Assembly (NCBI RefSeq): GCF_001940455.1
Contig: NZ_MKQR01000005.1
Span: forward strand, 132,319 to 196,318
DNA length: 64,000 bases
Direction of reading: 5' to 3'
Source of the DNA: Actinokineospora bangkokensis
Lineage (GTDB): Bacteria; Actinomycetota; Actinomycetes; Mycobacteriales; Pseudonocardiaceae
Below the pieces are notes generated by a model that ran no database searches, was not told where the DNA came from, and was given only the letters and a program-made list of their open reading frames with translations. Shown piece by piece: positions 3,756 to 51,262 of this stretch. Both the position numbers and the translations under genes were made by a program. Positions within the stretch are counted from its first letter, which is position 1; each line of letters opens with the position of its first letter.

Positions 3756-3768
3756 CGGAGGAGGTGCG

Positions 3769-5367
<1,599 letters not shown>

Positions 5368-5374
5368 GCCCCCG

Positions 5375-7354: not shown

Positions 7355-8508
7355 GCTTCACCGAGTCCGAGGAGCGCCAGGCACTGCGCCGCGCGGCCTT
7401 CGAGCTGGGCAGCAAGTACGGCCACGAGTACACGCTCAAGGCCGCCCGCAGCGGTGGGCACACCACCGAGCTGTGGGACGAGGCGGGCGCCCTGGGGTAC
7501 CTGGGCGTGAACGTCCCGGAGGAGTTCGGCGGCGGGGGCGGCGGCATCGGGGACCTGGCCGCGGTCTGCGAGGAACTGGGCGCGGCGGGCACCGGGCTGT
7601 TGCAGATGGTGGTGTCCCCGGCGATCTGCGCCACCATCATCAGCCGGTTCGGCACCGAGGAGCAGCGCAAGCGCTGGCTGCCCGGCTTCGCCGACGGGTC
7701 GCTGCGGATGGCCTTCGCGATCACCGAGCCGGACGCGGGCTCCAACTCCCACCGGCTCACCACCACCGCCCGCCGCGACGGCGACGGCTGGGTGCTCACC
7801 GGGCGCAAGGTCTACATCTCCTGCGTGGACGAGTCCTCGGCCATCCTGGTGGTCGGGCGCACCGAGGACGCCACGACGGGCAAGCTCAAGCCCGCCCTGT
7901 TCGTCGTCCCCACCGACGCCGATGGCCTGGAGTTCCACAAGATCGACATGGACGTCCTGGCCCCGGACAACCAGTTCCAGGTGTTCCTCGACGACGTCCA
8001 CCTGCCCGCCGACGCCCTCGTCGGCTCGGTGGACGCGGCGCTGATGCAGCTGTTCGCAGGCCTGAACCCCGAGCGCATCATGGCCGCCTCCTACGCGGTG
8101 GGCATGGGCCGCTTCGCCCTGGACAAGGCCGTGGAGTACGCCAAGTCGCGCACGGTGTGGAAGGCCCCCATCGGCGCCCACCAGGGGGTCGCGCACCCGC
8201 TGGCGCAGGCCAAGGTGGAGCTGGAACTGGCCAAGCTGATGACCCAGAAGGCCGCGGCCCTCTACGACTCCGGCAACGACATGGCCGCGGGCGAGGCGGC
8301 GAACATGGCCAAGTACGCCGCGGGCGAGGCCGTGGTGCGCGCGGTGGACGCGGCCGTGCAGACCCACGGCGGCAACGGCCTGGCCAGCGAGTACGGCCTG
8401 GGCGCCCTGGTGGCCGCCTCCCGGCTGTCGCGCATCGCCCCGGTCAGCCGCGAGATGATCCTCAACTTCATCGCCCAGTTCTCCCTGGGCCTGCCCAAGT
8501 CCTACTGA
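7351..8508 (+). CDS. Acyl-CoA dehydrogenase (second of two)
   Basis: 385 residues from the ATG that overlaps the carboxylase stop, with AGGAGGGG just before it. Family features include FAITEPDAGSNSHRLTT, VLTGRKVYISCVDESS and QTHGGNGLASEYGLGALV near the C terminus. It differs clearly in sequence from the first dehydrogenase of the operon, so it probably acts on another chain length or on a later intermediate. A glutamate in GLNPERIMAASYAVG is the likely base, by analogy with isovaleryl-type enzymes. Substrate unknown. Confidence 0.9.
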   Translation: MSFTESEERQALRRAAFELGSKYGHEYTLKAARSGGHTTELWDEAGALGYLGVNVPEEFGGGGGGIGDLAAVCEELGAAGTGLLQMVVSPAICATIISRFGTEEQRKRWLPGFADGSLRMAFAITEPDAGSNSHRLTTTARRDGDGWVLTGRKVYISCVDESSAILVVGRTEDATTGKLKPALFVVPTDADGLEFHKIDMDVLAPDNQFQVFLDDVHLPADALVGSVDAALMQLFAGLNPERIMAASYAVGMGRFALDKAVEYAKSRTVWKAPIGAHQGVAHPLAQAKVELELAKLMTQKAAALYDSGNDMAAGEAANMAKYAAGEAVVRAVDAAVQTHGGNGLASEYGLGALVAASRLSRIAPVSREMILNFIAQFSLGLPKSY

Positions 8509-8627
8509 GCCGCGCCCACCACCCGGCACTGCCCCCGACCCACCCACCCACCAGGAGGACGGCGACCACCGCGCAGGACAATGGCGCCGTCGGCCGTCCA
8601 CCCCCGACGCAGCGCCGAGGAGCACCC

Positions 8628-9236
8628 GTGGTCGAGGCAGTCCGCGAACCCCGCCAGGACCGCAGCCGGGCAACCCGCCGCAGGCTCCTGGAGGCGGCCG
8701 TGGACTGCCTCGCCGAGGTCGGCTGGACCGGCAGCACCGTCCTCGTCGTCGCCGAGCGCGCGGGCGTCTCCCGGGGCGCCGCCCAGCACCACTTCCCCAC
8801 CCGCGAGGACCTCTTCACCGCCGCCATCGACTACGTCACCGAGGAGCGCCTCGCCCACCTGCGCGCCAACCTCCCCAACCTCCCCCCGGGCCCCGACCGC
8901 ACCGCCGCCGTCGTCACCACCCTCGGCGAGGCCTTCACCGGCAAGATGTTCAACGCCGCCCTCCACCTCTGGGTCGCCGCCGCCTCCGACCCCCACCTCC
9001 GCTCCCTCGTCCTCCCCCTGGAGGCGAAGGTCGGCCGGGAGACCCACCGCCTCACCCTCGCCGCCCTCGGCGTCGACGAGAAGACCCACCCCGGTACGCG
9101 GGAAGCCGTCCAAGCCACCCTCGACATGGCCCGCGGCTTGGGCCTGGCCAACCTCCTCACCGACGACACCCCGCGCCGCCGCAAGGTCCTGTCCCAGTGG
9201 ACCACCATGCTCACCGCCGCCCTCACCACCCCCTGA
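8628..9236 (+). CDS. TetR-family regulator, likely repressor of the acyl-CoA operon
   Basis: 202 residues from GTG 8628, preceded by CGAGGAGCA. The N-terminal helix-turn-helix spans roughly residues 10-56 (RRRLLEAAVDCLAEVGWTGS, then VAERAGVSRGAAQHHFPTRE). The rest is an alpha-helical ligand domain. It is the last gene on the strand of the catabolic operon, 119 bp after the second dehydrogenase, so it may be co-transcribed or have its own weak promoter. By context it should sense an acyl-CoA and bind the palindrome at 73-90; this is inference. Confidence 0.85.
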   Translation: MVEAVREPRQDRSRATRRRLLEAAVDCLAEVGWTGSTVLVVAERAGVSRGAAQHHFPTREDLFTAAIDYVTEERLAHLRANLPNLPPGPDRTAAVVTTLGEAFTGKMFNAALHLWVAAASDPHLRSLVLPLEAKVGRETHRLTLAALGVDEKTHPGTREAVQATLDMARGLGLANLLTDDTPRRRKVLSQWTTMLTAALTTP

Positions 9237-9408
9237 GCGCCACCCTCCACACCGGACCCCCGCCCCCGCGCTGACCCACCCCCACAACCGAACCATCCGC
9301 GAGCAGCCAGCCCCACCAGACCGCTCCCCAAAGAACGGGCGCACAACCACCCACCCGGGCACGCCACCAAAATCCCGGTTCTTTAAAGGTCTGCGCAGCA
9401 GAACCCAG

Positions 9409-10773
9409 CTACAACCGCTCCAACGCGATCGGCAGGTCGTCCGCGGGCACCGGGATCGCCCGCGTGTCCCACACCAGCTCGTACCCGGCCGGGAACTCCC
9501 ACCGGAACGTCCGCAGGACCGCGTGCAGCAGCACCTTCACCTCGTGCATCCCGAAGTGCATCCCCAGGCACTTGTGCGCCCCGCCGCCGAAGGGCATCCA
9601 CGCGAACCGGTGCGCCTTGTCCTCCCGCCGCGCCTCGCTGAACCGCCGCGGGTCGAAGCGCTGCGGCTCGGTCCAGCACTCCTCCAGGTGGTGGCTGATC
9701 CCGGGGGTGACGAACACGAGGGTGCCCGCGGGCACGAAGTGGCCCTGCAGGTTGGTGTCGCGCACGGTGCGCCGGGGCAGGGTCGGCAGCGGCGCCACCA
9801 AACGCAGCGACTCCTTGACGACGAGGTCGAGCGAGGTCATCGCGGTCAGCGACGGCACGGTGGGCGGGTCGACCGACAGGCACTCGGCGCGGGCCTCGTC
9901 CTGCCAGTCGGGGTGGTGGCCGAGCTGGTGCAGCACGGAGGTGAGCGTGGTGGTCACCGAGTCGGTGGCGGCGATCATCATGAACACCATGTGGTTCACC
10001 ACGTCGTCGTCGGTGAACATGTGGCCCTCGTCGGTGCGGGCCTGGCACAGCGCGGTGAACAGGTCGGTGCCCGTCGAGCGGCGGCGCTCGGCGACGCGGG
10101 CCCGGAAGAAGCCCTCCAGCACCCGCCGCCCGCGCACGCCCGCGGCCCAGCGGGTGCCGGGGACGGCGCGGCGCAGCACCGCCATGCCGGCCTGGGAGGT
10201 GGCCAGGAACGCCTTCTGCAGCGACGCCGACTCCTCCGCCGGGGCGTCCATGAACACCTCGGTGGCCAGTTGCAGGGTCAGCGCGTGCAGCTGCGGGTAC
10301 ACCGCGCCGGGGGTCCAGGTGGGCACGACGCGCTTGGCCAGGGCGTCGACGCGCTCCAGGTAGCCGTCGATGCGGGTGGCGGTGAACGCCTCCTGCATGA
10401 GGCGGCGGTGGTGCAGGTGCTCGTCGCCGTCGAGCAGCATCAGGCCGCGGTTGACGAACGGGCCGACGAACAGCTCCCACCCCGCCTGCGAGTAGGCCTT
10501 GTCCCGGTTGACCAGGACCTCCTGGGCGGCGTCCGGGCCCGCGGCGGAGACGATGCGGGTGCCGAAGGCGCGCACCCAGGACACCGGGCCCAGCTCGCGG
10601 TAGCGGCGCAGGGCGAAGTGCGGTTCGCGGAACAGCGACAGCGAGTGGCCGAGCAGCGGGGCGCCCGCGTCCCCGGGCACCGGCAGCAGGTCGCTGCCCG
10701 CCGGGGGCGCGGCCAAGTCGCTGACCGGCCACCTCCGGTCCGCCAGCCACTTGTCCAGCATCCCCGCCGCCAT
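9409..10773 (-). CDS. Cytochrome P450
   Basis: 454 residues, ATG preceded by GGGAGCGGGAAC. All P450 landmarks are present: an I-helix with AATDSVTTT in place of the usual (A/G)GxET, the K-helix KESLR (ExxR), a PERF-like region FDPRRFSEARR, and the heme loop FGGGAHKCLG with the thiolate cysteine. It is longer than typical soluble actinobacterial P450s (about 400). No ferredoxin or reductase gene is adjacent, so electrons must come from elsewhere. The substrate cannot be read from the sequence. The tail is convergent with the TetR gene; the 172 bp between them hold no clear terminator. Confidence 0.9.
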   Translation of the reverse strand: MAAGMLDKWLADRRWPVSDLAAPPAGSDLLPVPGDAGAPLLGHSLSLFREPHFALRRYRELGPVSWVRAFGTRIVSAAGPDAAQEVLVNRDKAYSQAGWELFVGPFVNRGLMLLDGDEHLHHRRLMQEAFTATRIDGYLERVDALAKRVVPTWTPGAVYPQLHALTLQLATEVFMDAPAEESASLQKAFLATSQAGMAVLRRAVPGTRWAAGVRGRRVLEGFFRARVAERRRSTGTDLFTALCQARTDEGHMFTDDDVVNHMVFMMIAATDSVTTTLTSVLHQLGHHPDWQDEARAECLSVDPPTVPSLTAMTSLDLVVKESLRLVAPLPTLPRRTVRDTNLQGHFVPAGTLVFVTPGISHHLEECWTEPQRFDPRRFSEARREDKAHRFAWMPFGGGAHKCLGMHFGMHEVKVLLHAVLRTFRWEFPAGYELVWDTRAIPVPADDLPIALERL

Positions 10774-32987: not shown

Positions 32988-33000
32988 TACAGTCGGGGGT
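32988..33000 (+). promoter_or_regulatory. Leaderless-type promoter of trpF
   Basis: TACAGT at 32988-32993 ends seven bases before the GTG start of trpF. That is the spacing of a -10 element whose transcript starts at the initiation codon. It overlaps the P450 stop codon region, so trpF can be expressed independently of the P450. Confidence 0.5.
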
Positions 33001-33594
33001 GTGTTCGCGAAGATCTGCGGGTTGAGGACCGAGGCCGACGTCGAGGTCGCGGCCGAGGCGGGCGCCGACGCGATCGGGCTGGTCTTCGCCGCGAGCCCGA
33101 GGCGGGTCGACGTGGCCACCGCCGCCCGGCTGGTCAAGGCGACGCCGCCGGGCGTGCTCGTGGTGGGGGTCTTCAAGGACCAGCCGGTCGACGAGGTGGC
33201 CGAGCTGGCGGCCGCGTCGGGCGTCGCCGCTGTGCAGCTGCATGGCAGCTACCCGCGCGAGGCGTTCGACGCCCTCGCCGCCCGCGGCACCCGCCTGGTC
33301 CGGGCGACCTCGCTGACCCCCGGCACCGAGACGGCCACCGGCGCCTGGGGCGAGGAGATGCTGATCCTCGACTCGCCCACGCCCGGCTCCGGGCAGCGCT
33401 GGGACCTGCGCGCCCTGGAGGGCAACCGGCCCACCGGCCAGTGGTTGCTGTCCGGTGGCCTGGACCCGGACAACGTCGCCGAGGCCATCGCCCGGGCGCG
33501 GCCGTGGGGGGTCGACGCCTCCAGCGGCATCGAGTCCACCCGCGGCACCAAGGACCACGGCCTCGTCCGGGCGTTCCTGCAAGCCTGCCGCTGA
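33001..33594 (+). CDS. trpF: Phosphoribosylanthranilate isomerase
   Basis: 197 residues. Catalyses the Amadori rearrangement of phosphoribosylanthranilate in tryptophan biosynthesis. The catalytic cysteine is in AKICGLR (residue 6), the catalytic aspartate region is VQLHGSYP to LILDSPTPGSG, and the phosphate loop is LLSGGLDPDNV with VDASSGIES. It stands alone, with no other trp gene nearby. There is no Shine-Dalgarno, and the start looks leaderless. A strong bidirectional hairpin follows. Confidence 0.92.
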   Translation: MFAKICGLRTEADVEVAAEAGADAIGLVFAASPRRVDVATAARLVKATPPGVLVVGVFKDQPVDEVAELAAASGVAAVQLHGSYPREAFDALAARGTRLVRATSLTPGTETATGAWGEEMLILDSPTPGSGQRWDLRALEGNRPTGQWLLSGGLDPDNVAEAIARARPWGVDASSGIESTRGTKDHGLVRAFLQACR

Positions 33595-33601
33595 ACGCGG
33601 A

Positions 33602-33632
33602 ACAGGGCCGGGAGCAGCGCTCCCGGCCCTGT
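33602..33632. terminator. Bidirectional terminator between trpF and the lipase gene
   Basis: Perfect 14-bp stem ACAGGGCCGGGAGC / GCTCCCGGCCCTGT with a three-base loop AGC, located 8 bp after the trpF stop and 37 bp from the convergent lipase stop. Confidence 0.85.
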
Positions 33633-33668
33633 CTCGGCAGCGCGGGCCGCACACCCGCGCCACCCGCG

Positions 33669-34913
33669 TCAGCAGTTGCTCGGCGCCGCCTTGCCCGAGA
33701 ACCGGTCGACGATCCACTTGTGGGCGTCACCGTTGCCGGCGAAGATGCCCGTCAGGTGGTCGGAGATGTAGGTGTTCCACTGCAACCGCACACCCGAGGC
33801 GCAGTAGGACTTGTGCAGCGCGTCACCCTGCGGGGTGTTGACGATCTCGTCGGTCAGCGCGTGGTACTGGAACACCGGCACCCGCGGCGGGGTCTGGCCC
33901 AGCTTGTTCTGCGCCAGCCGCGCCTGCCACTTCGGGTCCTGGAGCGGGTTGCTGGTGGTGTAGTCGCTGATCTTCTTGAACGGGTACTTGGTCAGCAGCT
34001 CGATGACGCAGGCGTTGGCCTTGGCGTCGGCGATCTCCCGCTTGCCCGTGTCGTTGAGGTAGGAGTCCAGCTGGAGCTCCGGGTAGGCGTAGTCCAGGCC
34101 CACCGCCGCGAAGGCCAGGAAGCCGAAGCCCAGGTACCCGTCGAGGCCCTTGGCGACCTCGGTCAGGTCGGCCGGGACACCGCCGCCGACCGCGCCGACC
34201 AGGTTCAGCTCCGGGGCGTAGGACGGCTGCTTCTCCGCCGCCCACAGCGCACCGCCGCCGCCCTGGGAGTAGCCCTGGAAGATGACCTTGGCGTCGGCCT
34301 TGAGCCCGGCCTGCGGCAGGCGCTGGGCCGCGCGCACCGAGTCGATGACCGTGTTGCCCATCGACTGCCCGACGATGTAGGTGGGCCGGTTCGCCGCACC
34401 CGGGCGGTAGCCCTCGTAGTCGGTGATGGCCACCGCGTAGCCGGAGCTGATGTTGTCGTTGACCGCGGGCTGGTCGTACAGCGTGCCGCGCTCGATGGCC
34501 TTCGACGGCGTGCACTTGAACGCGGGCCCCTGGGTGCCCACCGCGTAGCCGACGATCGGCGCCTTCGACGTGTCGGCGAAGCGCGGCGTCATGATCGTGC
34601 CGGTCACCGCGATGCGCTGGCCCAGCGCGTCGGTCGACAGGTACATGACCTGCCAGGCGTTGGCGTTGAGCGCGTTGAGCGGGGGCACGGTCGGCCGCCA
34701 CCGGATGACGTCGCCGGGGGTGCCCGAGGGCAGCGGGCTCGGCGGCAGGTAGAAGCTGTCGTCGAGGGGGCCGGGCAGCGCGGGCGCCGCCGCGGCGCGC
34801 GCCCCCGCGGCCTCGGCGGACGGTGGTGTCGTGGCGTTCACCGCCACGACGGCGACCGCGCCCGCCACCACCGCGGCGAGCGCGGACGCGAGGCGCCGCT
34901 TCGTTCTGGTCAC
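33669..34913 (-). CDS. Secreted lipase (secretory lipase, LIP family)
   Basis: 414 residues, GTG start with GGAGG six bases upstream. N-terminal Sec signal peptide (basic MTRTKRR, hydrophobic to about residue 25, A-rich cleavage region before residue 45). Alpha/beta hydrolase of the secretory lipase family: nucleophile serine 216 in FQGYSQGGGG, probable acid in ALTDEIVN and histidine in ISDHLTGIF. Four cysteines may form disulfides in the exported enzyme. Probably hydrolyses triacylglycerols or other esters outside the cell. Confidence 0.9.
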   Translation of the reverse strand: MTRTKRRLASALAAVVAGAVAVVAVNATTPPSAEAAGARAAAAPALPGPLDDSFYLPPSPLPSGTPGDVIRWRPTVPPLNALNANAWQVMYLSTDALGQRIAVTGTIMTPRFADTSKAPIVGYAVGTQGPAFKCTPSKAIERGTLYDQPAVNDNISSGYAVAITDYEGYRPGAANRPTYIVGQSMGNTVIDSVRAAQRLPQAGLKADAKVIFQGYSQGGGGALWAAEKQPSYAPELNLVGAVGGGVPADLTEVAKGLDGYLGFGFLAFAAVGLDYAYPELQLDSYLNDTGKREIADAKANACVIELLTKYPFKKISDYTTSNPLQDPKWQARLAQNKLGQTPPRVPVFQYHALTDEIVNTPQGDALHKSYCASGVRLQWNTYISDHLTGIFAGNGDAHKWIVDRFSGKAAPSNC

Positions 34914-35269
34914 CAGTGACCTCCATGGGCTTTCGGGGAAACGGGTGACCAGTACTATCCGGATCTTCGTTGTCGCAGGTCAACGCCCGTGCGGGTTCTT
35001 CGGGAAAAGTGACAATCCGGACCGCTGGAGTTCCGTCGACCGCGAGTGGGTTTCCGCGCCGGATCCGGTACCTGCGCGTTCCGCGAATGGCATTCCGAAA
35101 ACGCCGCCCGGGTGCGCACGCCGTGCGCTGTTGGTATCGTTGTCTGTTCCGCACCGCACAACCGGTGTGCCCGGCGACCCGGTGTGGGATGATTGCCGGA
35201 GGTCAACGATCGGTGCCGACCGGCCCGACGACCCGGCGAAGACCCCCGAAGAGGTGACCAGCGGTTCCC
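34914..35269. other. Divergent intergenic region, 356 bp
   Basis: Separates the lipase gene (-) from the phosphatase gene (+) and must contain both promoters. It is clearly AT-richer than its flanks. GTTTCC near 35048 and GGTAT near 35133 resemble pieces of stress-sigma promoters, but their spacing is wrong, so I do not assign one. No convincing gene on either strand. Confidence 0.45.
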
Positions 35270-36859
35270 GTGTCCAAGCGAGGGCAGTCCACCAGCAGGC
35301 CCCTCGCCACCCCCGACCAGGGGTGGCGCGGAGCGCCCTACCCCGCCGTCGTGCTCGACGCCGGGGGTGCGGTGCTGGCCGCCAACGACGCGGCCCGCGC
35401 GCTGCTGCCCGCGGGCGCCCCGCCGGAGTGGCTCACCGGCGGCGACCGCGCCACCGGCGCCATCGGCGACCGGACCTTCGAGGCGCACGCGGTGCGGCAC
35501 GAGGACGAGTCGACGACCTGGTGGTTCGTCGACGACACCGACACCCGGCTGGCCGTGGACGCGCTGCGGGTGGAGCGCGAGCGGGCCGCCCTGCTCGGCG
35601 ACGCCTCCAACGCCCTGCTCGCCTCGCTCAACCTCGACCGCTGCATGGACGTCGCCGCCCGGCTGGCCGCCGAGCACCTGGCCGACGCCGCCGTGGTCAT
35701 CGCCCCGCCCAACCGCCGCCGCTACCCCGTGGTGGTCAGCCGCCGCGGCGAGGCGCCGGTGCGCGACGTGCTCCGGTTCAACCCCGAGGAGGTGCCCGGC
35801 CTGGCCGAGGCGCTGCAGGGGTTCCCGCCGGTGCCCTCGCGCTGGATCGACCCGGCCACCGCCCCGGCCTGGCTGCGCCCGGAGGGCTTCGGGGAGCTGG
35901 GCTCGATCGTGGTCACCCCGCTGCCCGGCCTCGGCGTCCCCGCGGGCGCCCTGGTGCTGCTGCGGCGCACCGGCGAGCCGTCGTTCAGCGACGAGGAGGA
36001 GATCTTCGCCCGGCTGTTCGCCGCCCGCGCGGGCACGGCGATGTCGGCCGCGCGGATGTTCGCCCAGCAGGCCTCGATCACCGAGACGCTGATGCGCGAG
36101 CTGCTGCCGCCCGCGCTGCACCAGGTCGGCGGGGTGGAGTTCGCGGGCCGCTACCGCCCGGCGCAGGACACCGAGCGGGTCGGCGGCGACTTCTACGACG
36201 TGCACCCCGGCGCCGGTGGCGAGGAGGCCGAGTCGCTGGCCGTGCTCGGCGACGTGTGCGGCAAGGGCCTGGAGGCCGCCGTCCTCACCGGCAAGATCCG
36301 CACCACGCTGCAGGCCCTGCTGCCGATGGCCGACGACCACGAGCGGGTGCTCAACCGGCTCAACGACGTGCTGGTCAACCCGCACAACACCCGGTTCGCC
36401 ACGCTGGTGCTGGCCTCGGCCGCCCGCGCGGGCACCGAGGTCAAGCTGCGGCTGACCTGCGCGGGCCACCCCGCCCCGCTGGTGGTGCGGGTCGACGGCG
36501 CAGTCGAGCCGGTGGCCACCCAGGGCAACCTGGTGGGCGTCATGCCCGCCGTGGCCGCCTCCACCGCCGCGGTGACCCTGGCGCCGGGGGAGAGCTGCCT
36601 GCTCTACACCGACGGCATCACCGAGGCCCGCGGCGGCCCGCTGGGCGACGAGATGTTCGGCGAGGCCCGGCTGCGCCGCGCGCTGGCCGAGTGCGCGGGC
36701 ATGCCCGCCGACGCCATCGTCGAGCACGTGCAGATGCTCGCCGCGCAGTGGATCGGCCAGCGCCCGCACGACGACATGGCCGTGGTGGCCATCACCGCGC
36801 CGCGCGGTCGCCACCTCACCGCGGTGGGTGGCCACAGCCGGGGTAGGTACACCGCATGA
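35270..36859 (+). CDS. PAS-GAF-SpoIIE (PP2C) phosphatase
   Basis: 529 residues. Residues ~15-100 are PAS-like (PAVVLDAGGAVLAANDAARA), ~110-275 a GAF domain (LLASLNLDRCMDVAARLAA), and ~285-520 an SpoIIE/RsbU phosphatase with all metal motifs: ERVGGDFYDV, LGDVCGKGLEA, YTDGITEARGG and HDDMAVVAI. The family dephosphorylates STAS anti-anti-sigma factors. It is the first gene of a translationally coupled set, overlapping the B12-binding gene by ATGA; the STAS gene after that is the likely substrate. The start has only a weak, distant GAGGTG. Confidence 0.9.
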   Translation: MSKRGQSTSRPLATPDQGWRGAPYPAVVLDAGGAVLAANDAARALLPAGAPPEWLTGGDRATGAIGDRTFEAHAVRHEDESTTWWFVDDTDTRLAVDALRVERERAALLGDASNALLASLNLDRCMDVAARLAAEHLADAAVVIAPPNRRRYPVVVSRRGEAPVRDVLRFNPEEVPGLAEALQGFPPVPSRWIDPATAPAWLRPEGFGELGSIVVTPLPGLGVPAGALVLLRRTGEPSFSDEEEIFARLFAARAGTAMSAARMFAQQASITETLMRELLPPALHQVGGVEFAGRYRPAQDTERVGGDFYDVHPGAGGEEAESLAVLGDVCGKGLEAAVLTGKIRTTLQALLPMADDHERVLNRLNDVLVNPHNTRFATLVLASAARAGTEVKLRLTCAGHPAPLVVRVDGAVEPVATQGNLVGVMPAVAASTAAVTLAPGESCLLYTDGITEARGGPLGDEMFGEARLRRALAECAGMPADAIVEHVQMLAAQWIGQRPHDDMAVVAITAPRGRHLTAVGGHSRGRYTA

Positions 36860-37932
36860 GCGACACCACCGCACGCGCCGCCGACGACCTCTGGGAAGCC
36901 GTCCTGGCGCGCGACGAGGAGGCCGCGGGCGAGGCCGTCGTGCGCGCCGCCGCCGCGGGCCTGGACCCCGAGACCGCCCTGCTGGACGTCATCGGCGCGG
37001 TGCAGCGCCGGGTGGGCGAGGAGTGGGCGGCCAACCGGCTCACCGTGGCCCAGGAGCACGCCGCCACCGCCATCAACGAACGCGCCGTCTCCGCGCTGAT
37101 GTTCGGCCGCAAGCTGCCCACGCCCACCCGCGGCCCGATCACCGTGGCCTGCGTGGACGGCGAGTGGCACGCCCTGCCCGCCCGGCTGGTCTCCGAGGTG
37201 CTGCGGCTGCGCGGCTTCCAGGTCGACTACCTCGGCGCCCAGGTGCCCATCCCGCACCTGATCACCCACCTGCACCGCACCGGCCCGGCCGCGGTCGCGC
37301 TGTCGAGCTCCATCCCCACCCGGCTGCCCACCGCGCACGCCACCATCACCGCCTGCCAGGCCGCGGGCACCCCGGTGATCGCGGGCGGCGCTGCCTTCGG
37401 CCCCGACGGGCGCTACGCCCGGCTGCTCGGCGCCGACGCCTGGGCCCCCGACGCCCGCTCCGCCGCCGACCGGCTGGCCCGCGAGCCGCTGCCCAGCCCG
37501 GCCCCGGGCGCCCACCAGCCCATCGACGACCTGCCGCACCTGGCGGACCAGGAGTTCACGATGGTCTCGCGCACGGCGACGCTGCTGGTCAAGGCGGTGC
37601 TCAACGGCCTGGAGGAGCGCATCCCGGCGATGCGCGCCTACAGCGACGAGCAGCACCAGCGCACCGCCGAGGACATCGCCCACATCGTCGACTTCCTCGC
37701 CACCTCGCTCTACGTCGCCGACGACGGGCTGTTCACCGGCTTCCTGACCTGGACCGCCGACATCCTCAGCGCCCGCTCGGTGCCCGCCGACGTGCTGGCC
37801 CCCGCCCTCGACCTGCTGCTCGCCGAGCTGCGGGACTTCCCCCGCGCCACCGCACTGATCACCACCGCCCACGCGGCCTTGGAAGCCGCCACCGACCGCA
37901 GCGACCGCCGCCACGGAGCCTCCACCGCATGA
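36856..37932 (+). CDS. Cobalamin-binding sensor with CarH-type photoreceptor signature
   Basis: 358 residues. The N-terminal helical bundle (1-88) is followed by a B12-binding Rossmann domain (~92-205). W57, E67 and H68 form the W-x9-EH motif that covers adenosylcobalamin in CarH/LitR photoreceptors. The lower-ligand motif reads E103-W-H105-A-L-P, so the histidine is kept and the final glycine of ExHxxG is proline. The C-terminal ~150 residues are all-helical (VLNGLEERIPAMRAYSDEQH onward) and replace the MerR domain of CarH. It lies between a SpoIIE phosphatase and a STAS gene with ATGA overlaps. I infer light- or B12-dependent control of partner switching. Confidence 0.85.
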   Translation: MSDTTARAADDLWEAVLARDEEAAGEAVVRAAAAGLDPETALLDVIGAVQRRVGEEWAANRLTVAQEHAATAINERAVSALMFGRKLPTPTRGPITVACVDGEWHALPARLVSEVLRLRGFQVDYLGAQVPIPHLITHLHRTGPAAVALSSSIPTRLPTAHATITACQAAGTPVIAGGAAFGPDGRYARLLGADAWAPDARSAADRLAREPLPSPAPGAHQPIDDLPHLADQEFTMVSRTATLLVKAVLNGLEERIPAMRAYSDEQHQRTAEDIAHIVDFLATSLYVADDGLFTGFLTWTADILSARSVPADVLAPALDLLLAELRDFPRATALITTAHAALEAATDRSDRRHGASTA

Positions 37933-38282
37933 GCCACCCGCGACCCCTGACCACCACCTGGACCACGCTCGACCGGCACACCGCCCGCGTCGCCGTCGAC
38001 GGCGACCTGGACTACGACACCGCGGACCGGCTGCTGCGCGAGGTCGTCGACCGGCTGCCGCAGCTGCGCGACCTGCACGTCGACCTGTCGGCGCTCGGGT
38101 TCTGCGACTCCTACGGGCTGTCGGTGCTGCTCATGGTGCGCAGGCACGTGGACGCGTCCTCGGCGGTGCTGCACCTGGACAACCGCCCCACCTCGCTGGA
38201 GCGGCTGCTCACCGTCACCAACACCCTCCAGCACCTCACCGGCGACCGGGTGGTCGCCCACCAGCAGACGCCCGAACCCTGA
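37929..38282 (+). CDS. STAS-domain anti-anti-sigma factor (first)
   Basis: 117 residues from the ATG overlapping the B12 sensor gene. Single STAS domain: ARVAVDGDLDYDTADRLL, LHVDLSALGFCDSYGLSVLL with the DSxGL phosphorylation-site region, and LHLDNRPTSLERLLTVTNT. In partner switching it binds an anti-sigma kinase when unphosphorylated. The phosphatase two genes upstream is the probable activator. The kinase and sigma factor are not in the window. Confidence 0.88.
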   Translation: MSHPRPLTTTWTTLDRHTARVAVDGDLDYDTADRLLREVVDRLPQLRDLHVDLSALGFCDSYGLSVLLMVRRHVDASSAVLHLDNRPTSLERLLTVTNTLQHLTGDRVVAHQQTPEP

Positions 38283-38325
38283 TCGCCGCGCTGCGCGCGC
38301 GGCCGCGGTGGGGGAAGCTGGGAGC

Positions 38326-38631
38326 ATGCCAGCCGAGGGGTCGGACCAGCTCGTCGTCGTGGACGTGGGAGACCGGGTCACCGAGCAGACCACGGCACCG
38401 GTGGGCGACGCCCTCCCGGGCGCCCAGGTGGTCGTGCTCGACCTGAGCAGGGTGTCGTTCCTCGACTCCGCCGGGCTCACCCACCTGGTCAACGCGCACA
38501 CCCGCTGCGAGCAGCACGCCGCCGAACTCCGCGTCGTCGTCGCGGACCCGGTGGTCACCCGCCCCATGGAGCTGACCGGCCTCGACCGCGTCCTGCGCCT
38601 GTTCCCCACCCTGGACCACGCCCGCCGCTGA
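38326..38631 (+). CDS. STAS-domain anti-anti-sigma factor (second)
   Basis: 101 residues, ATG with GGGGAAG nine bases upstream. Core STAS features: VVVLDLSRVSFLDSAGLTHL with the serine of DSAGL, then LRVVVADPVVTRPMELTGL. It lies 43 bp after the first STAS gene and differs clearly from it in sequence, so it is not a simple duplicate. It may be a second substrate of the same phosphatase or serve another kinase. Confidence 0.85.
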   Translation: MPAEGSDQLVVVDVGDRVTEQTTAPVGDALPGAQVVVLDLSRVSFLDSAGLTHLVNAHTRCEQHAAELRVVVADPVVTRPMELTGLDRVLRLFPTLDHARR

Positions 38632-38648
38632 TCCGCCAGGATGGTGGC

Positions 38649-39014
38649 ATGAGTGGGACCCAGCGCTACCCGCGCATCGACGAGTGGTTGCGAGAAGCCC
38701 ACGGCGACCCGCACTCGGACGTCCTGACCTCCACCGACCAGTTGACGGCACTGCACCTGGTCGTCGCGCGGGACGGTGGAGCGGACGTGCCGCCCGAGGT
38801 GTTGACGGCGTGGCGCCAACTGCTGAACCGGCGCAAGCTGGGCCTCGCGCAGTCCGAGATCGCCTTCATCACCTCGGCTCGGGCCCAGGGCTGGGAGTGG
38901 AGCCGGATCGACACCGCGTTGGGCTGCGACGACAGCGCAGCGCGGCTCGCGGAACTGGAGCGCGCGGTCGCGGACCGCCACCCCCAGCGCCGCCCCGAGC
39001 TGTACGAGCCCTGA
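38649..39014 (+). CDS. Small hypothetical protein with helix-turn-helix-like C terminus
   Basis: 121 residues. No family recognised. The N-terminal part is polar (RYPRIDEWLREAHGDPHSDV). The middle LTAWRQLLNRRKLGLAQSEI and the C-terminal WEWSRIDTALGCDDSAARLA look helical, and the latter has a helix-turn-helix feel. CAGGAT lies six bases before the ATG, compatible with a leaderless start. It follows the second STAS gene by 17 bp, so it may belong to the signalling locus. Confidence 0.65.
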   Translation: MSGTQRYPRIDEWLREAHGDPHSDVLTSTDQLTALHLVVARDGGADVPPEVLTAWRQLLNRRKLGLAQSEIAFITSARAQGWEWSRIDTALGCDDSAARLAELERAVADRHPQRRPELYEP

Positions 39015-39031
39015 CCCGCCTCTCGGGTCAG
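39011..39031. terminator. Hairpin containing both convergent stop codons
   Basis: CTGACCCG (39011-39018), loop CCTCT, CGGGTCAG (39024-39031). The TGA of the upstream gene (39012-39014) and the TGA of the minus-strand penicillin-binding protein (39030-39028) sit in opposite arms. Eight base pairs, no T-run. Confidence 0.55.
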
Positions 39032-41040
39032 CCGCCGAGCAGTTGGGTCATGGTGCGGAAGTACGGGGGCGCCGCGACGGTGCCGCCGAACGCGCCCGAC
39101 CCGCAGTTGCCCAGGTGCACCGAGGGGCCCGCGCACAGCTCGCCCGGTCGCGCGCCGTCGGCGAAGACCAGCGAGGAGGCGGCGTAGTCGCCGGTGCCGC
39201 CGACGAACGCCACCGACTCGGAGTTCTGGGTGGTGCCGGTCTTGCCGATGCCGGGCCGGTCCCAGCCCACCGCCCGGGCGGCGGCGGCGCTGGTGCCGAT
39301 GGTGGTGTCCTCGCCCAGCGCGGTGTTCAGCGTCGCGGCGACCTCGGGGGAGATGACCTGCTCGCACGCCGCCGACGTCACCGGCACGGTGGTGCCGTCG
39401 CGGTCGGTGACGGACAGGATGGGGGAGGGCGGGCACCACACGCCGCCGCTGAGCAGCGTCGCGGGCACGTTCGCCAGTTCCAGCGGGCTCACCGGACTGT
39501 TGCCGAGGGTGAAGGACAGCTTGTCCTGGAAGTACTGGGTCTGCGTCTGGTTGCGCTGCGGGTCCGCGGAGGTGGTGTCGACGGCCTTGCCCGCGTTGTT
39601 GGTGCCCATCGTGGTGCGCAAGCCCAGCTTGGACGCCATCGCCACCACCGCGGGCACGCCGACCTTCTGCTCCAGCCCCACGAACGCGGTGTTGGGGGAG
39701 GTGGCCAGGCCCTGCGTGAGGGTGATGGGGTCGGGGTAGGTGCCGTCGTTGCGCACGGTGTAGCAGCTGCGCGAGCCCGCGGCGCGGAAGCACTGCGAGG
39801 TGGGGTTGGGCAGCAGCGTGCCGAGGTCGGCGGCACCGGATTCGAGCGCCGCCGCGGCGGTGAAGACCTTGAACACCGACCCCGCGCCGAACGGGTCGCT
39901 CACCCCGGACACGACGTTGGTCGAGGTCTGCCCCTTCGCCGCGTCGGTGCCCAGCCGCCGGTTCGACACCATGGCGAGCACCTGGTGGTCGCCGGTGCCG
40001 GGCCGCACGAGCGCCAGGGTGTTGGCCACGCCGTCCTCGGTGGGGTCGACGTTGTCGTCCACGGCCCGCTGGGCTGCGGCGGTGGCGGCCGGGTCGAGCG
40101 TCGTGCGGATGGTGTAGCCGCCGGTCATCAGCTGCTCCTGGGTGAACCCGGCCGACTGGAGGTAGCTGAGGGCGTAGTCGCAGAAGAACCCGTCGGCGGT
40201 GCCCGTGCACGTGCTGGCGGGCACCACGGGCCCGTTCGGCAGCACGCCCAGCGGTGCGGCCTTCGCCGTGGCGGCGGTCGCGGCGTCGAGGGTCCCGGCC
40301 GACACCATGGCGTCGATGACGACGTCGCGGCGCTCCAGCGTGGCCTGCGGGTGGTCGTACGGGTCGAACGCGGTGGGGTTGTTCACCATGCCCGCCAGCA
40401 GCGCGGCCTGCGGCATGTCGAGCTTGTCCGCGGTGGTGCCGAAGTACGCCTGCGCGGCGGCCCCCACCCCGTAGACGCGGCCGCCGAACTCCACGACGTT
40501 GAGGTAGGCGGCCAAGATGTCGTCCTTGCCCATCGACGCGTCAAGCTCGATGGCCGACCGCGCCTCCCGCACCTTGCGGGTGACCGTGTCGGCCCGGTCC
40601 TGCGCCTGCGCCTGCGGGTCGTCGCGGTGCACCACGTTGATCAGGTAGTTCTTGACGAGCTGCTGGGTGATCGTCGACGCCCCCTGCGTCGCGCCCCCGG
40701 CGGCGTTGTTGATGGCCGCCCGCAGCAACCCCTTCGGATCCACGCCGCTGCTGGTGTAGAACCGCCGGTCCTCGATGCTGACGATGGCGGCCTTCATGGT
40801 CGAGGAGATGGCCGAAGCCGCCAGCGGCAACCGGTACTGGTCGAAGACCCGCGCGATGACGTTGCCGTCGCGGTCGGTCAGCGTCGTCACCCCCGGCAAC
40901 TGCTGGTCCAGGGTGACGGGCGGCTCGTCGGCCACCGCGGCGGCCACCACCCCCGCACCGGCCACCGCGGGCGCCACCATGCCCGCCACCAGCACACCGG
41001 CCACCCCGCACCCGCCCAGGAACTTCAGCACTCTGCGCAC
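39028..41040 (-). CDS. Class A penicillin-binding protein (glycosyltransferase + transpeptidase)
   Basis: About 670 residues from GTG 41040 (another GTG three codons later). One N-terminal membrane anchor (FLGGCGVAGVLVAGMVAPAV). The GT51 domain has the catalytic glutamate in SIEDRRFYTSSGVD and the motif GASTITQQLVKN. The transpeptidase domain has GAGSVFKVF (SxxK), TSPNTAF (SxN) and GIGKTGTTQ (KTG). In the EDxxFxxHxG motif the histidine is serine. It polymerises and cross-links peptidoglycan outside the membrane. No PASTA domains. Start chosen from the membrane segment; the longer frame would run into the divergent gene. Confidence 0.9.
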   Translation of the reverse strand: MRRVLKFLGGCGVAGVLVAGMVAPAVAGAGVVAAAVADEPPVTLDQQLPGVTTLTDRDGNVIARVFDQYRLPLAASAISSTMKAAIVSIEDRRFYTSSGVDPKGLLRAAINNAAGGATQGASTITQQLVKNYLINVVHRDDPQAQAQDRADTVTRKVREARSAIELDASMGKDDILAAYLNVVEFGGRVYGVGAAAQAYFGTTADKLDMPQAALLAGMVNNPTAFDPYDHPQATLERRDVVIDAMVSAGTLDAATAATAKAAPLGVLPNGPVVPASTCTGTADGFFCDYALSYLQSAGFTQEQLMTGGYTIRTTLDPAATAAAQRAVDDNVDPTEDGVANTLALVRPGTGDHQVLAMVSNRRLGTDAAKGQTSTNVVSGVSDPFGAGSVFKVFTAAAALESGAADLGTLLPNPTSQCFRAAGSRSCYTVRNDGTYPDPITLTQGLATSPNTAFVGLEQKVGVPAVVAMASKLGLRTTMGTNNAGKAVDTTSADPQRNQTQTQYFQDKLSFTLGNSPVSPLELANVPATLLSGGVWCPPSPILSVTDRDGTTVPVTSAACEQVISPEVAATLNTALGEDTTIGTSAAAARAVGWDRPGIGKTGTTQNSESVAFVGGTGDYAASSLVFADGARPGELCAGPSVHLGNCGSGAFGGTVAAPPYFRTMTQLLGG

Positions 41041-47028: not shown

Positions 47029-47113
47029 ACCGGCCCGCCCCCGCGCGCCGGTGGGACGGGCTCCGGTTCCGTAGGATGGCCGGGCCGGTGCGGTGGCGGA
47101 GATGAGGAGTCCG

Positions 47114-50100
47114 GTGCGCTCTGATGACGTTGTGGCCACACCGGAGGACGGGCCGGTGCCGGACGTGTTCGCCGCGGACCCGCGGATCGGCCGGGACCTG
47201 GTGCGGGTGGACTGGGCGGCCACCCCGCTGGGCGCCCCCGACGGCTGGCCGCAGAGCCTGCGCACGACGGTGAGCATCCTGCTGTCCTCGCGGTTCCCCA
47301 TGTGGATGGCCTGGGGCCCGGAGCTGACGTTCTTCTGCAACGACGCCTACCGGCGCGACACCCTGGGCCGCAAGTACCCGTGGGCGCTGGGCAGGCCCGC
47401 CCGGGAGGTGTGGGCGGAGATCTGGGGCGACATCGGGCCGCGGGTGGCCTCGGTGCTCGACACCGGCCAGGCGACCTGGGACGAGGCGCTGCTGCTGTTC
47501 CTGGAGCGCTCCGGGTACGTGGAGGAGAGCTACCACACGTTCTCCTACAGCCCGCTGCAGGACGACGAGGACCAGGTCGTCGGCATGCTGTGCGTGGTCA
47601 GCGAGGACACCGAGCGGGTGATCAGCGAGCGGCGGATGGCCACCCTGCGCGACCTGGGCTCGGACTACAGCGTGCTGCGCAGCGAGCGGCAGGTGCTGGC
47701 CTTCACCGACCAGCAGCTCGGGCGCAACCTGCGCGACCTGCCCTTCGCCGCGACCTACCTGTTCGACGAGGCGGGCACCGCGGTGCCCACCGGGTCCTCG
47801 GGCATCGGGGCCACCCGGGCGCTGACCAGCGACCCCGGCGCGTGGCCGGTGGCGGAGGTCCAGGACGGGCAGTCGGTGCTGCTCGACCTCGACCCCGACC
47901 GGTTCCCCGACCCGCCGCGCGGGGACTGGGCGGAACCCGCGGTGCGGGCGCTGGTGGTGCCGCTGCGCCAGCAGGGCGCGGCGCCGTTCGGGTTCCTCGT
48001 CGCCGGGCTCAACCGCTACCGCGAGCTGGACGGGGCCTACCGGGGCTTCCTGGAGCTGGTCGCCGGGCACATCGCGACCGGCATCGTCAGCGCGCGCAGC
48101 TTCCAGGCCCAGCAGCGCCGCGCCGAGGAGCTCGCCGCGCTCGACCGGGCCAAGACCACGTTCTTCTCCAACATCAGCCACGAGTTCCGCACCCCGCTCA
48201 CGCTGATCATGGGCCCGGTGGCCGAGCTGCGCGCCCGCGAGGACACCGGGCTCGACCAGCGGGCCAGGACCGAACTGGACGTGGTGCACCGCAACGGGCT
48301 GCGGCTGAGCAAGCTGGTCACCACCCTGCTCGACTTCTCCCGCATCGAGGCGGGCCGGATGCGGGCCAGCTACGCCCCGACCGACCTCGCCGCGGCCACC
48401 GCCGACCTGGCCAGCGTGTTCCGCTCGGCGGTGGAGGCCGCGGGCCTGCGGTTCACCGTGGACTGCGCGCCACTGGGCGAGCCCGTCCACCTCGACCAGG
48501 ACATGTGGGAGAAGATCGTCTTCAACCTGCTGTCCAACGCGCTCAAGTTCACCTTCGACGGCGAGGTCGCCGTCACCGCCCGCCGCGACGGCGCGCACGC
48601 GGTGGTCACCGTGCGCGACACCGGCGTCGGCGTGCCCGAGGCCGAGATGCCCCGGCTGTTCGAGCGCTTCCACCGCATCGAGAACTCCCGCGCGCGCTCG
48701 CACGAGGGCAGCGGCATCGGGCTGGCCCTGGTGCGCGAGCTGGTGGACCTGCACGGGGGCACCATCACCGCCGAGAGCACCGAGGGCGCGGGGACGACCT
48801 TCACCATCCGGCTGCCCTTCGGCACCGCGCACCTGCCCGCGGACGCCACCGCCCCCGCCGAGCGCCCCGCGCGCACCGGCGAGACCGGCGAGCAGTACGT
48901 CCAGGAGGCGCTGCGCTGGCTGCCCGGGGCGGGCGCCGAGCCCGAGGTGCCGCTGGGCCCGGACGCGCCGGAGTCGGGGGCGCCGGTGCGGGTGCTCATC
49001 GCCGACGACAACGCCGACATGCGCGACTACCTGGGCAGGCTGTTGCGCGGCGCGGGCTACCAGGTCGAGGCCGTCGTCGACGGCCTGCGGGCGCTGGAGG
49101 CCGTCCGCGCCGAGCAGCCGGACCTGGTGGTCAGCGACGTGATGATGCCGGGCCTGGACGGGTTGGCCCTGGTCGGGGCGCTGCGCGGGGACGCGCGCAC
49201 CGCCGCGGTCCCGGTGCTGCTGCTGTCGGCGCGGGCCGGGCAGGAGGCCTCCATCGAGGGCTTCCGCGCGGGTGCCGACGACTACCTGGTCAAGCCGTTC
49301 GCCGCCGCCGAGCTGCTGGCCAGGGTGCGCTCCACGGTGGAGCTGTCGCGGCTGCGCGCCCACCACGCCCGCTGGCGCACCGCCCTGGTCGACTCGCTGC
49401 AGGAGGCGTTCTTCGTCTGCGACGAGGACGGCGCCGTCATCGAGATCAACTCCGCCTTCACCGACATCCTGGGCTACGGCCCGGAGGGCCTGCCCTACCG
49501 GCCGACCCACCCGTGGTGGCCGGACCCGGACACCGACCCCGAGCAGCACGACGAGGTCGCCGACGCCTTCGCGCTGCTGATGGCCGCCGAGCACGGCAGC
49601 TACACCATCCCCGTCACCCACCGCGACGGGCACCGGCTGTGGGTCACCGCGAGCTTCAACGACGCCGAGGACCCCGACACCGGCCGCCGGATCACCGTGG
49701 GCACCTTCCGCGACACCACCGCCGAGCACTACGCGGTGCAGCGCCAGGGCGCGCTGGCCGCGCTCAACAGCCAGCTCGCCCAGGCCGACACCACCGCCGA
49801 AGCGCTGGCCGGGGCGGTCGCGGCGCTGCGCGGGACGTGGCAGGCGCGCCGGGTCCTGGCCGTCGTGCTGCCCGGGGACGAGGCGCCGGGGGAGCACCCG
49901 CCGGAGCCGGAGGTGGTGGGCGCGGGCAGTGGTACCCGGTGGGTCGACCTGCCCGACGAGGTCCGCGCGGCCATCGGCGAGCACCGCCGCGGCGACCTGC
50001 TCACCGCCACCACCAGCGGCGCGAGCGCGGCGAGCATCGCCGTGCAGCACCCCCGCGGCGTGCTGGCGGTGTGGGTCGAGCTGGCCGAGCAGCGCCCGTT

Positions 50101-51262
50101 CACCCCGGAGGACCAGACGCTGCTGACGATGCTGGCCGGGCGGCTCGGCCAGGGGCTCGCCCGCATGCACGCCCTCGACCAGCAGCGCGAGACCGCGCTG
50201 GCGCTCCAGCACGCCATCCTCGGCCCGCAGCGCCTGCCGATCGGCTTCGCCGTGCGCTACCAGCCCGCCACCAGCCCCCTGCAGGTCGGCGGCGACTGGT
50301 ACGACGTGATCGACCTCGACGACGGGCGCATCGGCCTGGTGGTGGGGGACTGCGTCGGGCACGGCCTGGCGGCCGCCACCGTGATGGGGCAGCTGCGCAG
50401 CGCCTGCCGCGCGCTGCTGCTGGAGCACCCCGACCCCAGCGCCGCGCTCGCGGGCATGGACCGGTTCGCCTCCCGGCTCACCGGGGCCAAGTGCACCACG
50501 GCGTTCTGCGCGGTGCTCGACCCGGAGACCGGCGAGCTGGTCTACTCCGGCGCCGGGCACCCGCCCCCGGTGGTGGTGCACGCCGACAGCACCACCACGA
50601 CCCTGCAGGAGGCGAGCACGATCCCGCTCGGCCTGCGCCCCGGCCGCCCGCGCCCGGCGGCCAGGGTCGTCCTGCCGCCGCGCTCGACCCTGCTGCTCTA
50701 CACCGACGGCCTCGTCGAGCGCAGGCGCAGCCCGCTGGACGAGGGGATCGCCCGCGCGGGCGACCTGGTCGCCGCCGGGCGCGCGGAGTCACCGGAGGAA
50801 CTGGCCGACCGGCTCATGTCCCGGCTGGCCCCGGCCGACGGCTACGAGGACGACGTCGCCCTGCTGCTCTACCGGCACCCGGCGCCGCTGCACATGGACC
50901 TCACCGCCGACGCCGAGGACATCGCCCCGGCCCGCGGCGCGCTGCGCGGGTGGCTGAACCGCTGCGGGCTGGACCCCGTGCAGGTCCAGAACATCCTGGT
51001 CGCCGCCGGGGAGGCCGTCACCAACGCCATCGAGCACGGCCACCGCGAGTCCCCCGGCGGCCGCGTCCTGCTGCGCGCCGCCGCCCTGATCGACGCCCTG
51101 CACATCACCGTCACCGACACCGGCAGCTGGAAGCTCCCCAACCCCCAGCAGAACCCGCACCGCGGCCGGGGCATCACCCTCATGCGGGCGCTGATGAACG
51201 ACGTCACGATCGAGTCGGACACCACCGGCACCACCGTCCACCTCCACACGAGGATCGCCTGA
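47114..51262 (+). CDS. Giant hybrid sensor: PAS-GAF-histidine kinase-receiver-PAS-GAF-SpoIIE-HATPase
   Basis: About 1382 residues. Order: PAS (~45-165), GAF (~190-340), HisKA with H356 in NISHEFRTPLT, HATPase_c (LLSNALKFTFDG to GIGLALVRELV), receiver (~625-745, phosphoacceptor D675 in VVSDVMMPGLDG, lysine in LVKPFAA), PAS (~755-870), GAF, SpoIIE phosphatase (GGDWYDV, VGDCVGHG, YTDGLVERR, EDDVALLL), and C-terminal anti-sigma-type ATPase (VAAGEAVTNAIEHGH, GRGITLMRAL). One chain thus joins phosphorelay input to both phosphatase and kinase arms of partner switching. The STAS gene overlaps its stop. GTG 47114 is chosen for the GAGGAG five bases before; GTG 47093 and ATG 47102 are alternatives. Confidence 0.9.
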   Translation: MRSDDVVATPEDGPVPDVFAADPRIGRDLVRVDWAATPLGAPDGWPQSLRTTVSILLSSRFPMWMAWGPELTFFCNDAYRRDTLGRKYPWALGRPAREVWAEIWGDIGPRVASVLDTGQATWDEALLLFLERSGYVEESYHTFSYSPLQDDEDQVVGMLCVVSEDTERVISERRMATLRDLGSDYSVLRSERQVLAFTDQQLGRNLRDLPFAATYLFDEAGTAVPTGSSGIGATRALTSDPGAWPVAEVQDGQSVLLDLDPDRFPDPPRGDWAEPAVRALVVPLRQQGAAPFGFLVAGLNRYRELDGAYRGFLELVAGHIATGIVSARSFQAQQRRAEELAALDRAKTTFFSNISHEFRTPLTLIMGPVAELRAREDTGLDQRARTELDVVHRNGLRLSKLVTTLLDFSRIEAGRMRASYAPTDLAAATADLASVFRSAVEAAGLRFTVDCAPLGEPVHLDQDMWEKIVFNLLSNALKFTFDGEVAVTARRDGAHAVVTVRDTGVGVPEAEMPRLFERFHRIENSRARSHEGSGIGLALVRELVDLHGGTITAESTEGAGTTFTIRLPFGTAHLPADATAPAERPARTGETGEQYVQEALRWLPGAGAEPEVPLGPDAPESGAPVRVLIADDNADMRDYLGRLLRGAGYQVEAVVDGLRALEAVRAEQPDLVVSDVMMPGLDGLALVGALRGDARTAAVPVLLLSARAGQEASIEGFRAGADDYLVKPFAAAELLARVRSTVELSRLRAHHARWRTALVDSLQEAFFVCDEDGAVIEINSAFTDILGYGPEGLPYRPTHPWWPDPDTDPEQHDEVADAFALLMAAEHGSYTIPVTHRDGHRLWVTASFNDAEDPDTGRRITVGTFRDTTAEHYAVQRQGALAALNSQLAQADTTAEALAGAVAALRGTWQARRVLAVVLPGDEAPGEHPPEPEVVGAGSGTRWVDLPDEVRAAIGEHRRGDLLTATTSGASAASIAVQHPRGVLAVWVELAEQRPFTPEDQTLLTMLAGRLGQGLARMHALDQQRETALALQHAILGPQRLPIGFAVRYQPATSPLQVGGDWYDVIDLDDGRIGLVVGDCVGHGLAAATVMGQLRSACRALLLEHPDPSAALAGMDRFASRLTGAKCTTAFCAVLDPETGELVYSGAGHPPPVVVHADSTTTTLQEASTIPLGLRPGRPRPAARVVLPPRSTLLLYTDGLVERRRSPLDEGIARAGDLVAAGRAESPEELADRLMSRLAPADGYEDDVALLLYRHPAPLHMDLTADAEDIAPARGALRGWLNRCGLDPVQVQNILVAAGEAVTNAIEHGHRESPGGRVLLRAAALIDALHITVTDTGSWKLPNPQQNPHRGRGITLMRALMNDVTIESDTTGTTVHLHTRIA

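Follow-up and report, generated by a model that had tools for sequence, protein, structure and literature searches.

Photocobilins, together with their light chemistry and a predicted interaction network in which STAS and SpoIIE proteins are partners of the Saccharothrix member, are already in print (PMC10979010; this and the two other papers cited below are drawn on for selected sections). The Saccharothrix syringae protein SasPcob (PDB: 8J2W and 8J2X) is photoactive, and its named residues include W61, E71, H72 and H108, as well as D270 and W296, which have roles in biliverdin binding; the W, EH and H residues have been tied to light-dependent B12 sensors (PMC10979010). The function of standalone photocobilins was called less clear in that report, in which standalone SasPcob acted in trans on a cyclase, altering its activity in a light-dependent manner and with opposite sign in the presence and absence of biliverdin. 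In AbDPcob (PDB: 8J2Y), the same module controls a fused GGDEF output enzyme by light. Here we analyse a 64,000-nucleotide stretch of the Actinokineospora bangkokensis genome (NZ_MKQR01000005.1, positions 132,319 to 196,318; hereafter the window), in which a four-gene operon at positions 35270–38631 encodes a photocobilin between a SpoIIE-type phosphatase and two STAS proteins, and which we propose to be a light-input partner switch.

The output half of the operon resembles RsbU-RsbT, RsbP-RsbQ, Rv1364c and the tandem-GAF protein RsbZ of Clostridioides difficile, in which a PPM phosphatase with an N-terminal sensor and a helical linker has its activity set by a domain or partner, the output passing through STAS, RsbW and a SigB-type sigma factor (PMC12143880). 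RsbT activates RsbU by ordering the helical linker so that the phosphatase domains dimerise, a linker logic argued to be common to cyclases (PMC12143880). In the window operon, by contrast, the proposed partner is a photoreceptor. Light also feeds a partner switch in YtvA, a LOV protein acting on SigB through the stressosome, and in LOV-SpoIIE and LOV-STAS proteins; these, however, are flavin-based blue-light sensors that deliver their output through an associated domain or the stressosome (PMC4844311). The genes and the motifs discussed below are as follows.

35270..36859, + strand: PAS-GAF-helical linker-PPM (SpoIIE/RsbU-type) phosphatase, GTG start, 529 amino acids
35990..36103, + strand: long helix (residues 241–278) linking GAF to phosphatase domain, a candidate signal-transmitting coiled-coil linker by model secondary structure and analogy with RsbU
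36856..37932, + strand: photocobilin (B12-binding helical bundle, Rossmann domain, C-terminal globin), ATG start, 358 amino acids
37024..37059, + strand: W57...E67-H68, upper-face adenosylcobalamin (AdoCbl) motif, aligned to SasPcob W61/E71/H72
37162..37170, + strand: E103-W-H105, lower ligand motif, H105 aligned to SasPcob H108
37549..37881, + strand: predicted bilin-binding globin (photoglobin) domain, by PDB sequence match, alignment and Foldseek
37929..38282, + strand: STAS1, predicted anti-anti-sigma protein (Pfam STAS_2, 54 bits)
38326..38631, + strand: STAS2, predicted anti-anti-sigma protein with DSAG, ATG start (Pfam STAS, 59 bits)

A preliminary description of this DNA, made from the letters alone, had read a SpoIIE phosphatase, a B12-binding protein and a STAS antagonist joined by ATGA overlaps, with a second STAS gene 43 bp further on, and the open reading frame (ORF) coordinates agree with it. 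The ATGA overlaps form both the phosphatase/B12 gene and the B12 gene/STAS1 junctions, and the 43-bp gap separates the STAS1 stop from the ATG at 38326, an alternative in-frame GTG being present at 38308. Matches above the Pfam gathering scores were obtained for SpoIIE (140 bits), B12-binding (58 bits), B12-binding_2 (54 bits) and the STAS domains. STAS2 occupies the matching position in both congener loci, those of Actinokineospora spheciospongiae (L048) and A. pegani (L038).

The B12 protein belongs to the photocobilins, as judged from its sequence and its predicted structure. A phmmer search of the PDB sequences returned 8j2x, the S. syringae photocobilin, with an E value of 9.3e-77 over residues 5–342, followed by 8j2y (E value 1.5e-45); the next matches, the B12 domains of MerR/CarH proteins, covered only the N-terminal part (about 1e-12 to 1e-14). 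The AlphaFold2 model (predicted local distance difference test, pLDDT, 90.1; predicted template modelling score 0.86) has 8j2w and 8j2x (template modelling score by query 0.83–0.84, 44% identity) and 8j2y as its top Foldseek matches. The protein thus has a CarH-like B12-binding domain, with the W...EH and E/DxH motifs, followed by a five-helix bilin globin. W57, E67, H68, E103 and H105, pointed out in the preliminary description as CarH-type motifs, are all present, and W57, E67, H68 and H105 superpose in the alignment on W61, E71, H72 and H108 of SasPcob. Its remark that the protein lacks a MerR domain also holds, since Pfam finds B12 domains only and the N-terminal part of the model is taken up by the B12 bundle. 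The helical C-terminal domain that it described is there as well, but its identity had been missed, as had the protein's place in a named family and the published prediction of SpoIIE/STAS partners: the predicted structure and alignment identify this tail as a globin of the biliverdin-binding kind, because the SasPcob chromophore residues fall on residues of the window protein and Foldseek returns the photocobilins. D270 and W296 of SasPcob correspond to D273 (37672–37674) and W299 (37750–37752), although AbPcob has a His in place of the Asp, which is therefore not strictly required.

The window protein accordingly shares with SasPcob its domain order, AdoCbl residues, biliverdin Asp/Trp pair and standalone form (PMC10979010); the two are 44% identical in the structural alignment and lie on different branches of the tree, SasPcob standing beside L143 and L144. 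It shares the photocobilin module with AbDPcob, in which the output is a fused GGDEF domain and a His replaces the biliverdin Asp, whereas the output enzyme proposed for the window operon is a separate phosphatase. With CarH/LitR it has in common the AdoCbl-binding bundle, the Rossmann domain and the W...EH and H motifs, but CarH binds DNA through MerR while the window protein carries a bilin globin. Membership of CarH/LitR itself was rejected, given the missing N-terminal MerR domain and an NCBIfam CarH score of 67.8 bits against a cut-off of 400. The same genome also encodes a CarH-like B12 protein (G000:C26:295283-295804, L003), and a match to sigma-70 region 2 (C26:292794-293003) lies about 2.3 kb away from it; the two are possibly a LitR/LitS-like pair.

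The SpoIIE call in the phosphatase comes from Pfam, which made no PAS or GAF call. Its AlphaFold2 model (single chain, mean pLDDT 84.6) shows a PAS-like fold, a GAF-like fold, the long helix 241–278 and a PPM domain, and the Foldseek matches include Pseudomonas aeruginosa RssB, the RsbU part of Rv1364c, SiaA and SpoIIE, with phytochromes bearing PAS-GAF modules further down the list. The model and these matches, to RsbU-type phosphatases on the one hand and to phytochrome-type PAS-GAF proteins on the other, support the order PAS-GAF-PPM, as the preliminary description had it. The metal-binding residues typical of PPM phosphatases of Rsb-type partner switches, Asp307, Asp328, Asp501 and Asp502, are invariant among 31 aligned sequences. 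In STAS1, Ser61 (38109–38111) lies in a D-S-x-G motif of which D60, S61 and G63 are invariant in 32/32 aligned sequences (the window protein and 31 of 65 downstream STAS proteins), and is the candidate phosphorylatable residue expected of such a switch. We presume this role by analogy with SpoIIAA.

The operon is conserved well beyond the genus. Genomes scanned with a 17-photocobilin alignment yielded 506 confirmed relatives, the best 80 of which, a selection leaning towards close relatives, were examined as named loci (L numbers; G numbers denote genomes). In 80/80 the photocobilin gene is immediately preceded, on its own strand, by SpoIIE sequence (a plainly long match in 78), and in 65/80 a STAS gene directly follows, as in the order read from the window in the preliminary description. 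The 80 loci include those of Amycolatopsis, Saccharothrix, Streptomyces, Pseudonocardia, Lentzea, Nocardioides, Actinomadura, Actinoplanes and mycobacteria. A single frame encoding both phosphatase and photocobilin was looked for and found in 0/80. In a wider set, 150 of the 172 loci that hold a near full-length photocobilin have SpoIIE immediately upstream; once identical proteins and the copy from the window itself are taken out, the count is 134 of 152 labelled rows, only near full-length matches being labelled and shorter ones (e.g. L003, L135–L142) not counted. The upper-face W, E and H and the lower-ligand His are kept in 152/152 rows. Since the source genome holds just 21 SpoIIE matches (20 over the cut-off), few genes taken at random would be preceded by one, and the adjacency exceeds chance.

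Twelve of the 18 rows without SpoIIE upstream come from other classes of the phylum, the others, within the family, being L011, L145, L170, L171, L173 and L174; in the phylum sample, all loci without SpoIIE (L124–L133) lie outside the class. In a FastTree phylogeny covering 155 rows, with many weak or long branches, the SpoIIE label is clustered (7 changes, against a shuffled mean of 19.1). The best-scoring photocobilin type and the type of its upstream phosphatase agree in 134/134 cases (114 + 20), none crossed, and phosphatase and photocobilin distances match (r 0.93). Photocobilins of other actinobacterial classes without a SpoIIE neighbour are found at L124–L133 and L177–L182; those of L179 and L181 adjoin a histidine-kinase-type ATPase domain.

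A link to a kinase, or to a kinase and a sigma factor, is visible at some photocobilin loci. Searches with a hidden Markov model grown from RsbW-like proteins of photocobilin loci placed an RsbW-like kinase immediately before SpoIIE, in the same orientation, in 21/80 and within 4 kb on either strand in 36/80; the kinase of L034 is recognised in Pfam as HATPase_c_2 (42.6 bits, cut-off 27.4). L143 and L144, which group most closely with SasPcob on the tree (support 92), have the order SpoIIE, photocobilin, STAS, RsbW-like, and the kinase of L143 passes Pfam narrowly (28.8 bits, same cut-off). At L036 (Saccharothrix yanglingensis), a PAS-SpoIIE-HATPase_c_2-STAS fusion with an Rv1364c-like order (6349–8238) stands just upstream of the photocobilin operon. 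The source genome, moreover, holds a second photocobilin, 34% identical to that of the window, on contig C7 (L157), in the following setting.

2895-3326: RsbW-like protein
3119-4108: ORF containing a SigF-type sigma domain (TIGR02980, 252.5 bits)
4113-5045: ORF containing STAS
5104-5706: RsbW-like protein
5788-7125: GAF-SpoIIE phosphatase
7122-8165: photocobilin
about 8192-8476: STAS protein
8507-9580: PPM phosphatase, divergent

The TIGR02980 score exceeds its cut-off of 234.35 bits, and the SigF model NF005514 gives 274.7 bits, below its cut-off of 372. This order, including the sigma factor, recurs in L149, L151 and L195, in total in 4 of the 10 listed matching genomes of the genus, with the divergent PPM phosphatase in three of the four. 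In the source genome, a sigma factor of SigB/SigF type is photocobilin-linked at this second locus only.

The chromophore residues differ between the two kinds of locus. The biliverdin-holding Asp is kept in 113/134 SpoIIE-paired rows and the Trp in 134/134, whereas the second-locus clade has Val, Ala, Thr or Cys in the Asp column, often with an Asp one residue earlier, and this replacement makes biliverdin binding there doubtful. Cys occupies the column in one clade (L146–L148, L150, L153, L155, L156, L158, L161 and L175), whose members may bind a bilin covalently, or another ligand. As to cofactor supply, the source genome encodes a PF01126 heme oxygenase and both kinds of adenosyltransferase tested. 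Without correction for kinship, heme oxygenase is commoner in genomes with a photocobilin (50/72 vs 61/128, Fisher p 0.003) and in those with an ortholog of the window protein (29/39 vs 82/161, p 0.011). A comparison of heme oxygenase with the biliverdin-Asp type (37/47 vs 8/16, p 0.05) was dropped as driven by one genus (0/7); in it the Asp type was assigned to the 39 ortholog genomes on the strength of identity, the residue itself having been read in all but 9, and 9/72 photocobilin genomes were left out (G006 and G085, with another residue, and seven whose sequence was not retrieved).

Given that SasPcob acts on a cyclase in trans, that RsbU is controlled through its linker and that the phosphatase contains a long helix, the simplest joint reading would make the photocobilin a trans-acting, light-dependent partner of the adjoining phosphatase. 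We consider it reasonably probable that the operon works as a switch of this kind. The photocobilin would bind AdoCbl and probably biliverdin, and its Co-C bond would be broken by green light, or by red light via biliverdin. The photolysed protein would then alter its contact, presumably direct, with the region of the phosphatase made up of PAS, GAF and linker, much as RsbT acts on RsbU and RsbQ on RsbP, the latter comparison being drawn partly from general background. A shift in how the phosphatase domain dimerises, and in how active it is, would set the phosphorylation state of STAS1 Ser61, and perhaps of STAS2, which in turn would govern, in the illuminated cell, whether a SigF/SigB-type sigma factor is sequestered or released by its RsbW-type kinase, which we infer to be encoded elsewhere in the genome. 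Light might turn the output either on or off. That CarH-like AdoCbl photochemistry feeds a phosphatase/anti-anti-sigma pair, as the preliminary description had suggested, appears well supported by homology and by the conserved operons. More tentatively, and with rather less confidence than in the switch itself, we suggest that the cell possesses two separate B12-based light switches of sigma factors that differ in colour response, the window operon responding to green and red and the SigF-linked operon, having lost the Asp, to green only, each photocobilin acting in trans, as a photoreceptor equivalent of RsbT/RsbQ, on the one phosphatase to which it is dedicated, and the two being inherited as a unit across Actinomycetes.

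Other explanations must be weighed against such a switch. The photocobilin might target something else, e.g., the STAS protein directly, a diguanylate cyclase or a kinase, with the phosphatase merely co-expressed and answering to its own PAS-GAF ligand. SasPcob did modulate, in trans, a diguanylate cyclase that is not its cognate partner (PMC10979010), and the model and Foldseek matches give the phosphatase sensor-like domains of its own; however, the photocobilin-phosphatase pair (80/80) is more constant than either STAS (65/80) or the kinase (21/80), and the types never cross, so that we regard this explanation as unlikely. Somewhat less likely again is a cofactor-level or redox sensor, in which the availability of AdoCbl, or of biliverdin, sets the switch instead of light. 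The activity of AbDPcob in the dark differs between the apo and AdoCbl-bound forms (PMC10979010), and exposure to light in soil is presumably uncertain, but every labelled row keeps the light-sensor residues and the solved relative is photoactive (PMC10979010); the "B12-tuned" option of the preliminary description, i.e., control by cofactor level, found no specific support. It is highly improbable that the protein is an ordinary corrinoid protein, the partner of a methyltransferase and a chance neighbour of the phosphatase. The B12-binding fold is indeed common to MtbC/MttC-type proteins, but the window scores lie far below the cut-off, no methyltransferase occurs among the seven scanned window proteins, the operon is conserved, and the globin domain and full-length photocobilin match, in sequence and in Foldseek, in practice already refute this explanation.

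Several observations nevertheless weigh against the proposed light-input switch. The window locus has no linked kinase, the nearest HATPase_c_2 matches lying at about 48.5 and 50.9 kb, some 10 kb or more downstream; the 64-kb window contains no match to sigma-70 region 2, and the congener loci L038 and L048 have neither a HATPase_c_2 kinase nor a sigma-70 region 2. The two distant matches are parts of a single 1389-amino acid hybrid (47093–51262, + strand) with GAF, HisKA, HATPase, response regulator, PAS, SpoIIE and RsbW-type HATPase_c_2 domains. A search for unlinked orthologs of the Amycolatopsis kinase gave a best E value of 1.5e-7 (34% identity) in the source genome, and of 6e-17 (41%) and 1.6e-12 (36%) in the two congeners. 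Among the 80 loci, 15 have no recognised STAS directly downstream, and two have a broken or partial phosphatase match, at most 1.5 kb upstream of the photocobilin match, presumably through decay or sequence error: L107 (Streptomyces sp. P3), in four pieces, and L089 (S. olivaceus), the end part only. The near ortholog L011/L192 has no SpoIIE alongside. The correlation of phosphatase and photocobilin distances also follows from simple co-inheritance, and PF01126 heme oxygenase is missing in 10/39 ortholog-bearing genomes of the family, so that biliverdin use may not be universal.

The neighbours of the operon are a secreted lipase gene on the opposite strand (33669–34913) and a small ORF (38649–39014) without a Pfam match. 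No convincing common promoter box emerged when the upstream regions were aligned, whether among three congeners or among four Saccharothrix/Actinosynnema loci, a consensus promoter scan gave a single promoter-like site on the opposite strand and nothing useful, and Rfam had no match over 33000–40000.

The photoglobin paper reportedly looked at gene neighbourhoods, and may describe the order SpoIIE-photocobilin-STAS. The sections of PMC10979010 drawn on here contain no test of SasPcob with a cognate phosphatase, and a limited literature search (listings and abstract openings) found neither an experimental photocobilin-phosphatase pair nor a SigF-linked photocobilin operon. New here are the SpoIIE adjacency in all 80 loci, the non-crossing types, the RsbW-type kinase at 21 of them and the SigF-linked second locus, and the output hypothesis is more specific than what we found in print. 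The constant neighbour, a PAS-GAF phosphatase of its own type, together with the SigF-linked locus, suggests a concrete output for standalone photocobilins: light-controlled dephosphorylation of anti-anti-sigma proteins in Streptomyces, Amycolatopsis, Pseudonocardia and their kin. If true, this would provide a green/red-controlled phosphatase for optogenetics, and would mean that SigF/SigB-type sigma factors in such bacteria take input from B12/bilin light sensing.

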